From Variovorax sp. YR216 (GTDB taxonomy: Bacteria > Pseudomonadota > Gammaproteobacteria > Burkholderiales > Burkholderiaceae_C), in the NCBI RefSeq assembly GCF_900107745.1, contig NZ_FNRO01000010.1, positions 62,001-126,000 of the forward strand: a stretch of 64,000 bases of DNA, read 5' to 3'. Below are positions 6,388 through 8,626 of the stretch, in pieces (the first letter of the stretch is position 1; the number at the start of each line of letters is the position of its first letter). The notes under the pieces are model-generated. The model was not told the origin of the DNA. It saw only the letters and a list, made by a program, of their open reading frames with translations, and did no database searches. Both the position numbers and the translations under genes were made by a program.

Positions 6388-7257
6388 TCAGACGTAGCGC
6401 TTCTCGAGCGCGTCCCATTCCGGCTTGCCGACGAGCCGCTGGCGCTCCGCGAAGGGCGTGACCAGGCCGCTCGATTCCTGGACTTCCTTTTCGTCGCGCA
6501 GCACGGTCAAGGCCTTCTGCATGCCGGCGACGGCACCCTGCAGCGCCGCATTCGCGTAGAGGACGATGCCGTAGCCCAGTTCCGCAAGCTGGTCGGCATT
6601 GAAGATCGGCGTGCGGCCGCCGATCACCATGTTCATCAGTTGCGGCTTCGCGAGGCGCCGGGGCAGGGCGCGCACTTCCTCCGCCTCGGTCACGGCCTCG
6701 ACGAACAGGATGTCGGCGCCGGCCTCCGCGAACTTCTGCGCCCGTTCGATCGCCGCCTCGAAGCCCTGCGTGGCGCAGGCGTCGGTGCGGGCCAGGATCA
6801 GCAGGTCGTCGTCCTGGCGCGCATCGACGGCCGCCTTGATCTTGCTGACGGCTTCCTCGGTGGAGATCACCTCCTTGCCGGAGAAATGGCCGCAACGCTT
6901 GGGCGCGACCTGGTCCTCGAACTGGATGCAGTCGGCGCCAGCGCGCTCCAGCGTGCGCACCGTGTGGCGCACGTTCAGCGCGTTGCCGAAGCCGGTGTCG
7001 GCATCGACGATGAGCGGAAGGCTGACCGCATCGCGGATGCGCGCCGTGTGATCGGCAATTTCGGCCAGGCCCATGAAGCCCTGGTCGGGCATGCCGAACC
7101 ACATGTTGGTGACGCCCGCGCCGGTGACGTAGATGGCTTCGAAGCCCAGGTCTTCGATGACGCGTGCAGACAGCGCATTGAAGGCGCCGGGCACCAGCAC
7201 GCCGCGGCGTGCCTCCGCAAGTGCGCGCAGGGTCTTGCGGGTTTGGATGGAGCTCAT
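6388..7257 (-). CDS. Isocitrate lyase/PEP mutase superfamily lyase, methylisocitrate-lyase-like
   Basis: A 289-residue TIM-barrel enzyme of the ICL/PEP-mutase superfamily. The metal-binding strand is DADTGFG (residues 85-91) and the catalytic loop is KRCGH (residues 120-124) with Cys122 as the likely acid/base. It is the last gene of a methylcitrate-cycle set, where a 2-methylisocitrate lyase (PrpB) should cleave 2-methylisocitrate to succinate and pyruvate. The residues around the motifs (MPDQGFMGL, KRCGHFSGKE) look less like classical PrpB than like the dimethylmalate-lyase or carboxyphosphonate-mutase branch, so the exact substrate is open. The start at 7257 has AAGGA 8 bp upstream; the frame extends further but only through the repeat region. 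Confidence 0.8.
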   Translation of the reverse strand: MSSIQTRKTLRALAEARRGVLVPGAFNALSARVIEDLGFEAIYVTGAGVTNMWFGMPDQGFMGLAEIADHTARIRDAVSLPLIVDADTGFGNALNVRHTVRTLERAGADCIQFEDQVAPKRCGHFSGKEVISTEEAVSKIKAAVDARQDDDLLILARTDACATQGFEAAIERAQKFAEAGADILFVEAVTEAEEVRALPRRLAKPQLMNMVIGGRTPIFNADQLAELGYGIVLYANAALQGAVAGMQKALTVLRDEKEVQESSGLVTPFAERQRLVGKPEWDALEKRYV

Positions 7258-7312
7258 TGAGGAGGTCCTTGATGGAACGTTGAGAAATTCAGTGATGCGG
7301 CAGGGGTGCGAG

Positions 7313-7400
7313 GCGAGGACGCCGGGTGGTCCCCTCCGCGAATGTCCCCCGGCTTCGCCTCCTCCTTTATTTCGCTGCGGGGACCACCCGGCATCCTCGC
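7313..7400. repeat. Hairpin repeat, copy 1 (conserved loop segments, variable stem)
   Basis: Two 22-bp arms, 7313-7334 and 7379-7400, are complementary at 21 of 22 positions. They enclose a 44-bp core at 7335-7378. The core begins TCCGCGAATGTCCCCC, has a mini-hairpin GGC-TTC-GCC, and ends TCCTCCTTTATTTCGCTGC. GCGAA near its left end pairs with TTCGC near its right end, continuing the stem. The same core, with different arms, recurs in reverse orientation at 7448-7541. It lies in the 319-bp gap between the receptor gene and the lyase gene, which otherwise holds no gene I can support. Confidence 0.8.
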
Positions 7401-7447
7401 CACGAGAAGCGCTGCGTGGTGCCGGCCGATCGACCACGGCCGTGACG

Positions 7448-7541
7448 GATCGCGACGATGGTGTGCTCTGCGCAGCGAAATAAAGGAGGAGCCCGAAGGG
7501 CGGGGGACATTCGCGGAGCAGAGTACGCCGTCGGCGCGATC
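7448..7541. repeat. Hairpin repeat, copy 2, inverted relative to copy 1
   Basis: Arms 7448-7471 and 7518-7541 pair at 20 of 24 positions, and three of the four mismatches would be G-U wobbles in RNA. The 46-bp core (7472-7517), read in reverse complement, has the same two conserved segments as copy 1. Its internal mini-hairpin is GCCC-TTC-GGGC instead of GGC-TTC-GCC. Both the outer and inner stems differ from copy 1 yet stay self-complementary. The two cores could also pair with each other across the 93 bp between them. Confidence 0.8.
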
Positions 7542-7576
7542 CCACCCCGACGCATGCCCGCGGGTGAGCTTCATCC

Positions 7577-8548
7577 TCAGTCTTCCTTCATACCGGTGGA
7601 CTTCACGACAGCGCCCAGGCGAGCACGTTCCTCATCCACGAACTTGACGAACGATGCGCGCGTGCCGCCGATGGGCTCGATGCCCATGCCCTTCAGACGC
7701 TGCACGGTGGCAGGGTCCTTCATCGCCTTGTCCACCGCCTCGGCCATCTTGTCGAGGATGGCGGGCGGTGTACCGGCCGGTGCATGCACGCCGGCCCAAT
7801 GCGCGATGCGGATATCGTCGAAGCCCTGTTCGACCGCCGTCGACAGTTCCGGATAGGCGGAGATGCGCTGCGTCCACGTGGTGGCCAGAGGCTTGAGCTT
7901 GCCGCTCTTGATGTAGGGCAGCACCACGATGCTGGCCTCCGAGGTCGCGTCGACCTGGTTGCCCAGCACGGCAGTGATCGACTCCGAGCCGCTCTTGTAG
8001 GGCACGACGTCGAGCTTGGCGCCATGGTTCTTCTCGAGCAGGCCTTCGACGAAATGCGGTGTGCTGCCGGTGCCTGCGGTAGCGAAGTGCAATCCCTTGC
8101 CCTTCTTCGATGCGGCGACGAAGTCCTTCAGGTCCTTGTAGGGCGCGTCTGCGGGCGCCACGACGACCGACGGCGCGAGGGCGATCATGGCCACCGGCAC
8201 GAGGTCGCTGTCCTTGTAGGGCACGTTCTTCCGGATCATGCTGTTCGACACCACGCCCGCCGCGCTGATCAGGAAGGTGTAGCCGTCGGGCGCGCTCTTC
8301 GCGACGACGTCCGTGCCGAGCATCGCGCCCGCGCCGGGCTTGTTGTCGACCACCACCGGCTGGCCGAGCGCCTTGGACACGCCATCGGCCGCGGCGCGGC
8401 CCATCAGGTCGTTGGCGCCGCCGGCCGAGAAGGGCACGACGAAATGGATCGGCTTGGTGGGCCACTGCTGGGCCGATGCGGCGCCGGCAAGTGCCATGGC
8501 GGAAAGGGCGACCACCGCTGCGCGGTGTCCGATGCGGGTCTTGTTCAT
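7577..8548 (-). CDS. Tripartite tricarboxylate transporter receptor, Bug/TctC family (methylcitrate cluster, 1)
   Basis: A 323-residue periplasmic solute-binding protein. A Sec signal peptide spans about residues 1-26 (ending AGAASA), followed by the family hallmark WPTKPIHFVVPFSAGGANDL and the APDGYT motif. Bug proteins bind carboxylates and normally hand them to a TctA/TctB permease, which is absent from this window. The start at 8548 has AGGAGA 6 bp upstream; the longer frame to 8599 is unlikely. It is embedded between prpF and the lyase gene on the same strand, so a tricarboxylate or methylcitrate-related ligand is plausible but inferred. Confidence 0.88.
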   Translation of the reverse strand: MNKTRIGHRAAVVALSAMALAGAASAQQWPTKPIHFVVPFSAGGANDLMGRAAADGVSKALGQPVVVDNKPGAGAMLGTDVVAKSAPDGYTFLISAAGVVSNSMIRKNVPYKDSDLVPVAMIALAPSVVVAPADAPYKDLKDFVAASKKGKGLHFATAGTGSTPHFVEGLLEKNHGAKLDVVPYKSGSESITAVLGNQVDATSEASIVVLPYIKSGKLKPLATTWTQRISAYPELSTAVEQGFDDIRIAHWAGVHAPAGTPPAILDKMAEAVDKAMKDPATVQRLKGMGIEPIGGTRASFVKFVDEERARLGAVVKSTGMKED

Positions 8549-8626
8549 GTGGGGTCTCCTGGGATGTGAATAGAACGGCTCAGGGGCGCCATGATGCATG
8601 GTTTCGTCGCGCCTCCGTGTCGGCGT

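Follow-up and report, generated by a model that had tools for sequence, protein, structure and literature searches.

The stretch of Variovorax sp. DNA analysed here (64,000 nucleotides, referred to as the window) contains a repeat of roughly 250 bases, built from two ~90-nt hairpins placed in inverted orientation around a ~45-nt spacer. On balance we favour the interpretation that this repeat belongs to the REP/BIME kind of mobile element, dispersed and non-autonomous, and that its folded single strand is what is recognised. The original prediction described two copies, at 7313-7400 and 7448-7541, that share two segments, and both copies and both segments are present there. The predicted span of 7313-7541 does hold the two hairpins, while the element itself reaches slightly farther, to about 7300-7552; its ends were taken from the genus profile and read by eye. 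The block 7303-7550 (query 404-651) is found again in many genomes of the genus. The features of the window copy are as follows.

7300..7552, no strand: whole element, two inverted hairpins bounded by short, imperfect terminal inverted repeats
7300..7310, + strand: left end, a degenerate form of the genus terminal motif TGTTCRGGGCGCG (profile, by eye)
7311..7402, - strand: hairpin A, whose G-rich, best-folding strand is the - strand (covariance model R1, 97.9 bits, E 1.2e-21)
7338..7350, + strand: 5' part of the core of A, GCGAATGTCCCCC, with stem GCGAA and internal loop; conserved columns
7351..7359, + strand: apical mini-hairpin of A, GGC-TTC-GCC
7360..7375, + strand: 3' part of the core of A, TCCTCCTTTATTTCGC, with internal loop and stem TTCGC
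7403..7447, no strand: spacer between A and B, weakly conserved (33 Variovorax units)
7448..7541, + strand: hairpin B, whose G-rich, best-folding strand is the + strand (R1, 89.2 bits, E 1.7e-19)
7475..7490, - strand: core of B, TCCTCCTTTATTTCGC
7491..7501, - strand: apical mini-hairpin of B, GCCC-TTC-GGGC
7502..7514, - strand: core of B, GCGAATGTCCCCC
7542..7552, - strand: right end, the inverted counterpart of the left terminal motif (profile, by eye)

The outer stem of each hairpin spans 22-24 positions; above it come a small internal mismatch (TCC/TGC) and a GCGAA/TTCGC stem, topped by an asymmetric internal loop, TGTCCCCC / TCCTCCTTTAT, and by the variable apical mini-hairpin. The change of the mini-hairpin between copies and the extension of both stems by GCGAA/TTCGC had been read correctly from the sequence, as had the complementarity of the arms, at 21/22 positions in copy 1 and at 20/24 plus three G-U pairs on the + strand in copy 2. 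When the 3' arm was shuffled with its composition kept, the pairing value of neither copy was reached in 20,000 trials. Allowing up to three mismatches, TCCTCCTTTATTTCGC occurs twice in the window versus 0.07 expected; GCGAATGTCCCCC alone, at up to two mismatches, returns the same two matches only, with 3.3 expected, which is no more than chance. The outer arms of the two copies had been called unrelated. Their sequences do differ, but the window arms still agree at 10/22 positions on each side and the genus consensuses of the A and B arms both hold a GGGTAC-like stretch near the core, so that the arms may be diverged relatives. Relative to dinucleotide shuffles, DNA folding gave z values of -6.4 and -8.0 for hairpin A and of -2.9 (1/200 shuffles as good) and -6.0 for hairpin B, and RNA folding of the window hairpins gave -5.4 to -8.5. 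The RNA fold of hairpin B reaches -55.2 kcal/mol on the + strand versus -42.1 kcal/mol on the - strand.

The element is flanked on its left by a PEP mutase/isocitrate lyase family gene (6388-7257, -) and on its right by a TctC gene (7577-8599, -). Overlapping open reading frames cross the hairpins on both strands within 7303-7545 (for example 7306-7647 on + and 6388-7545 on -), and automatic annotation may stretch genes into such elements.

Covariation of the stems and the strand that folds

The proposal had been that selection or copying acts on the folded form, in a mobile palindromic repeat or a structured RNA, with many intergenic copies carrying covarying arms as the check. Such copies were found with the exact core and with the covariance model, and their stems change and yet pair, which supports the proposal that the fold is what is maintained. 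Alignment A1 comprises 54 hairpins, 45 from other taxa and nine from Variovorax. Standard pairs make up 86.1% of A1, a percentage raised by the choice of copies with at least 17/27 arm positions paired, and 31/35 pairs are changed on both sides. Relative to shuffle controls, a comparison that related sequences inflate, A1 has 486 compensatory cells versus 140, and further pair types separate less (89 versus 82, reached by 24/500 shuffles). Slid controls, which keep the relatedness but favour a structure derived from these sequences, gave covariation scores of 0.088-0.122 versus 0.622 for A1. Before the pairing cut, 57 non-Variovorax copies had a mean of 21.8/27 arm positions paired versus 13.8 for taxon-mixed arms.

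Across genera the 32-bp stem varies on both sides and the internal loop TGTCCCCC / TCCTCCTTTAT is nearly fixed. The core stem changes pairwise (GCGAA/TTCGC, GCGAC/GTCGC, GCGGC/GCCGC). A further core variant, GCTCA with ACTTCGC, has two pairs replaced; on our reading the G-rich strand would carry tandem G.A pairs in their place. Beside the core of three loci (L028, L032 and L072), the base of the left arm is replaced by GCAGCGAA, GCGGCGAA or GGAGCGAA before GCGAATG. These replacements nearly match the other side inverted, as template switching within the hairpin might produce.

The deviations from standard pairing fall largely on one strand. With the two mismatch positions beside the core left out, the C-rich strand of A1 holds 99 A.C versus 12 G.T, and an A.C on the C-rich strand is a G.U on the G-rich strand. 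Read as the G strand, A1 rises from 86.1 to 90.8% standard pairs. Wobble is more frequent on the G strand in 42/54 aligned hairpins and on the other strand in four, with eight ties. Counted as distinct events (taxon, position, context), A.C outnumbers G.T by 127 to 28, and does so in 16/19 taxon labels (one tie, two opposite), several of which hold one or two copies. Among Variovorax copies, which are related, the C-rich strand has 351 A.C versus 19 G.T, about 18 to 1. Four of the five arm deviations in the window obey this G-strand rule: the sole deviation of copy 1 is A.C on the + strand, that is, G.U on its G-rich (-) strand, and of the four in copy 2, three read as G.U on its G-rich (+) strand, the fourth being mismatched on both strands.

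Arm energies were compared with a neutral loop joining the arms and a margin of 0.5 kcal/mol, in 209 copies (155 from Variovorax) after 9/218 copies with poor arms had been left out. With RNA parameters the G-strand arms fold better in 204/209 copies and the C-strand arms in two; with DNA parameters the G strand is favoured 193 to 1. When identical arms were merged and three core-adjacent positions dropped, the G strand was favoured in 168/183, with three opposite and 12 within 0.5 kcal/mol. Together with the wobble counts this is good evidence that the constraint acts on a single strand and not on a cruciform. In each unit the inverted arrangement makes both folding strands run outward, away from the spacer. 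The folded molecule may be RNA or single-stranded DNA, both being possible, and the strand-specific wobble could be given by an RNA role as well as by folded single-stranded DNA. Apical loops of the UNCG and GNA types were counted for what they might say about RNA versus DNA; among 68 distinct mini-hairpin strings (one empty), 35 have TNCG on the C-rich strand, six GNA, one both and 26 neither, counts that do not decide.

One inverted unit and its distribution

The two hairpins are one repeated unit in inverted arrangement. Using R1, a covariance model from 54 hairpins, we scanned 70 loci, all pre-selected as hairpin holders (26 from the family survey, 34 named loci from other taxa and ten from Variovorax). 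An inverted pair, + then -, was found in 54/70; 15 loci hold a single hairpin, some of them near a contig end, and one holds a direct pair (L041, Lysobacteraceae). A single local duplication is excluded by the inverted pairs in these 54 loci from many genera, and an origin by chance or by one such duplication can be set aside with near certainty given the copies elsewhere. The spacer measures 35-75 nt in 30/35 inverted pairs inspected and 15, 146, 173, 274 and 651 nt in the other five. Counted by core pattern, with some loci overlapping, 82 of 88 adjacent core pairs run + then - (81 within 130 nt), five run ++ and one -+; two of the ++ pairs lie within 130 nt, with 70-109 nt between cores.

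In the Variovorax profile, conservation extends to ~39 nt beyond the core, and each side ends in a TGTTCRGGGCGCG-like motif. Identity among 33 Variovorax units is 0.76-0.90 in the arms, 0.69-0.74 in the spacers and 0.56-0.59 in the flanks, compared with 0.57 for shuffled spacers. In a Xylophilus locus (L064, 4500-5500; also L197), hairpins A and B lie 651 nt apart around an open reading frame of ~130 codons, which came from a search for a gene-carrying version, made by looking for hairpin pairs spaced more widely, and may be cargo or just a neighbouring gene.

The family survey used R1 with strict filters and at most 13 candidates scored per genome, and gave matches in 136/299 genomes and 75/141 genera. 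Across the class R1 matched 4/369 genomes; two belong to this family and the other two to a single further family, probably Xanthomonadaceae/Lysobacteraceae by the names of the collection matches. The window's own genome has four exact-core matches and five R1 hits; within the genus, the number of exact-core copies in a genome varies from 0 to 136. The exact core was found in 25/61 genomes; all 25 belong to the 37 from the genus, and none of the 24 from other families of the order has it. A collection scan with the exact core returned at least 120 stretches, and the matches listed come from Variovorax, Ramlibacter, Hydrogenophaga, Pseudorhodoferax, Xylophilus, Rhodoferax and unplaced Burkholderiales, and also from Lysobacter, Stenotrophomonas and a Stagnimonas MAG; core conservation of these copies is partly by construction, since they were found by the exact core pattern.

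We considered whether the element is plasmid or phage cargo and rejected this: copies occur in three Variovorax plasmid records, of 1.2-1.3 Mb, no phage record matched, and no IMG/VR contig carried the exact core pattern. A search of window positions 6500-8500 with Rfam 15 at E up to 1 gave ten matches, all to miRNA models and far below gathering score, and seven loci from other genera gave none; hairpin copies yield such chance hits to RNA families. The repeat is abundant, absent from Rfam and present in many genomes of one large bacterial family.

Dispersal, loss and the proposed mode of movement

Orthologous sites were found in full, partly deleted and empty states, which fit dispersal and loss. 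The genes that flank the window element overlap by 4 bp to lie 112 bp apart in at least 19/60 other genomes of the genus, and being so close they leave no room for a full unit; the other 41 genomes are uninformative at this site. Two aligned empty sites of the window copy differ from it in more than the element. At five sites compared in seven related strains, full units, single hairpins, remnants or nothing were found where the site could be placed. We also compared two strains, G004 and G065, that are 92.8% identical over 170 kb aligned. Seven sites lie in 800 kb of one strain, and five of them could be placed in the other. Three of the five have no intact hairpin in the second strain, one through a deletion that joins core A to core B, one through a deletion from core A to the outer arm of B, and one with no trace of the element. 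At a fourth site each strain retains a different hairpin. At the fifth both strains keep both hairpins, with a core partly duplicated in G065, and the spacer differs much more than the hairpins do, which may be explained by exchange between copies. No clean insertion between near-identical strains was seen among the few sites compared, and no target site duplication was seen by eye in the units inspected.

Several smaller observations concern individual copies. At L251 (G065:C1 near 5542047), most of one core is tandemly duplicated in G065 relative to G004. Four solo hairpins (L029, L054, L106 and L130) consist of the left arm of B and the left end of A with the middle missing, an outcome that resembles the core-to-core deletion in G065 near 5404004. 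Homogenisation within genomes appeared strong in one strain, whose copies had been picked among the best scores; it is not claimed, because 33 units unpicked by arm sequence gave a modest within-genome excess.

Similar to REP, BIME and REPIN sequences, the element forms dispersed intergenic palindromes and inverted doublets with compensatory stem changes and a patchy copy number. It differs from them in having hairpins of ~90 nt whose internal loop, close to the top, is nearly fixed, and in that arms of different genera share little sequence. As defined in one report, a REP has a GTAG/GTGG head beside a short palindrome of about 20-35 nt (PMC2817692). A GTRG head was not seen here, the Variovorax end profile giving TGTTCRGGGCGCG and the other genera being read by eye.

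Mobilisation by a RAYT in the strict REP/REPIN sense would account for the inverted doublets, the intergenic sites and the patchy copy number, and the transposase class examined, Y1 (Y1_Tnp, PF01797), is present in 58/61 Variovorax genomes, 57 with exactly one copy and one with two. The Variovorax gene looks single-copy and vertically kept. Across the family, however, Y1 was found in 103/136 element-positive and 119/163 negative genomes (p 0.60), which is no association in a test whose power is low because Y1 is common. No Y1 hit was found in 33/136 positive genomes, including G104 (0 candidates), and no R1 hit lies within 1.5 kb of ten Variovorax Y1 genes (~3.3 kb loci, e.g. L185-L194). With the long hairpins and the head motif not seen, we regard RAYT mobilisation as improbable; family co-occurrence and the Y1 locus searches do not support it. 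The element works like REP/BIME, and membership in the RAYT-REP systems is not supported by the Y1 tests.

For the REP/BIME-like element that we favour, the following course is suggested. The outward-pointing G-rich strand, folded and single-stranded, would be recognised by a putative trans-acting factor responding to the fixed internal loop and to stem shape, not to stem sequence. Arms could then drift while staying paired, because such a factor would ignore their sequence. Both ends would be processed symmetrically when the unit moves, copies would swap segments with each other, and they would decay through internal deletions, as seen in a few sites. A more specific version is put forward tentatively, at clearly lower confidence: the hairpins would be the ends of a mobile element, a putative mobility enzyme or RNA partner would read the fixed internal loop on the folded single strand and ignore the stem, and each lineage could replace its arm sequences entirely without halting the element's movement. 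This would make it a selfish, fold-defined element outside the RAYT systems, in Burkholderiales and, by names, in Xanthomonadaceae. The questions posed by the repeat are which factor recognises the fold, and whether the folded molecule is RNA or single-stranded DNA.

Other mobile systems offer partial parallels. A DDE-type miniature transposon has terminal inverted repeats, to which the short TGTTCRGGGCGCG-like ends on both sides of the Variovorax unit correspond. For IS200/IS605 ends and integron attC sites the substrate is strand-specific folded single-stranded DNA, with structure counting over sequence. The likeness of our element to these is one of mechanism, by analogy, and no such enzyme is linked to it. 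ERIC, NEMIS/Correia and RUP are short, non-coding, mobile-like foldable elements that form sequence-conserved families. In our element, by contrast, stems vary freely in sequence around a fixed loop, a distinction at the level of general features. These three families are named in PMC3110155.

Gene context, a possible RNA role and published repeats

RNA pairing would be expected to produce a wobble excess like that in Variovorax, about 18 to 1. An alternative explanation, possible but clearly less probable in our estimate than the mobile element, is a structured RNA at transcript ends, acting as a bidirectional 3'-end protector or as a binding site in mRNA. Given the outward arrangement, the last hairpin reached from either direction of transcription would be the G-rich, best-folding form, and on our reading G.A pairs on the G strand flank core pairs and sometimes replace them. 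With neighbours called by a simple ORF rule, 74/123 sites were scored and compared with 333 background gaps. The element sites are mostly tandem (42) or convergent (24), and fewer lie between divergent genes (8/74) than in the background (74/333, with 187 tandem and 72 convergent). The weak conservation of the spacer argues against such an RNA, as do the solo hairpins, which have no clear orientation to genes: among the 26/31 scored, nine run with both neighbours, six against both, and seven and four are mixed. An RNA role set by gene orientation was rejected on the lack of clear bias in these solo hairpins. The internal loop of the G strand also holds a Shine-Dalgarno-like AAAGGAGGA, which we take as a resemblance only.

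Among open-licence PMC papers, the nearest printed description noticed is that of the Beta-proteobacterial repeat element, BRE (Hot et al. 2011). According to that paper, BRE is ~90 bp long with a GC content of 69%, usually intergenic, with conserved partial copies of 40-60 bp, occurs in Bordetella and Comamonadaceae, and forms a VNTR of tandem units separated by few bases or none (PMC3110155). Our element could belong to BRE or to the unplaced Burkholderiales-1 motif, or be closely related to either, in which case the family would be partly known; we consider this rather unlikely. It is favoured by the shared size, GC-richness, usually intergenic position, Comamonadaceae hosts and suspected mobility (PMC3110155), and by the listing of Burkholderiales-1 without an Rfam accession in PMC2864571. 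Against it, BRE units are described as tandem, whereas here the units are inverted pairs and 5/88 adjacent core pairs are direct, two within 130 nt. Neither 'hairpin' nor 'inverted' appears in the main text on BRE (PMC3110155). This comparison is one of printed descriptions; BRE may be related to the hairpin family, and Burkholderiales-1 is a further candidate. The strand-sided wobble, carried by the G-rich strand, is new in this analysis, and the copies offer naturally occurring compensatory changes in which the strand is already labelled.
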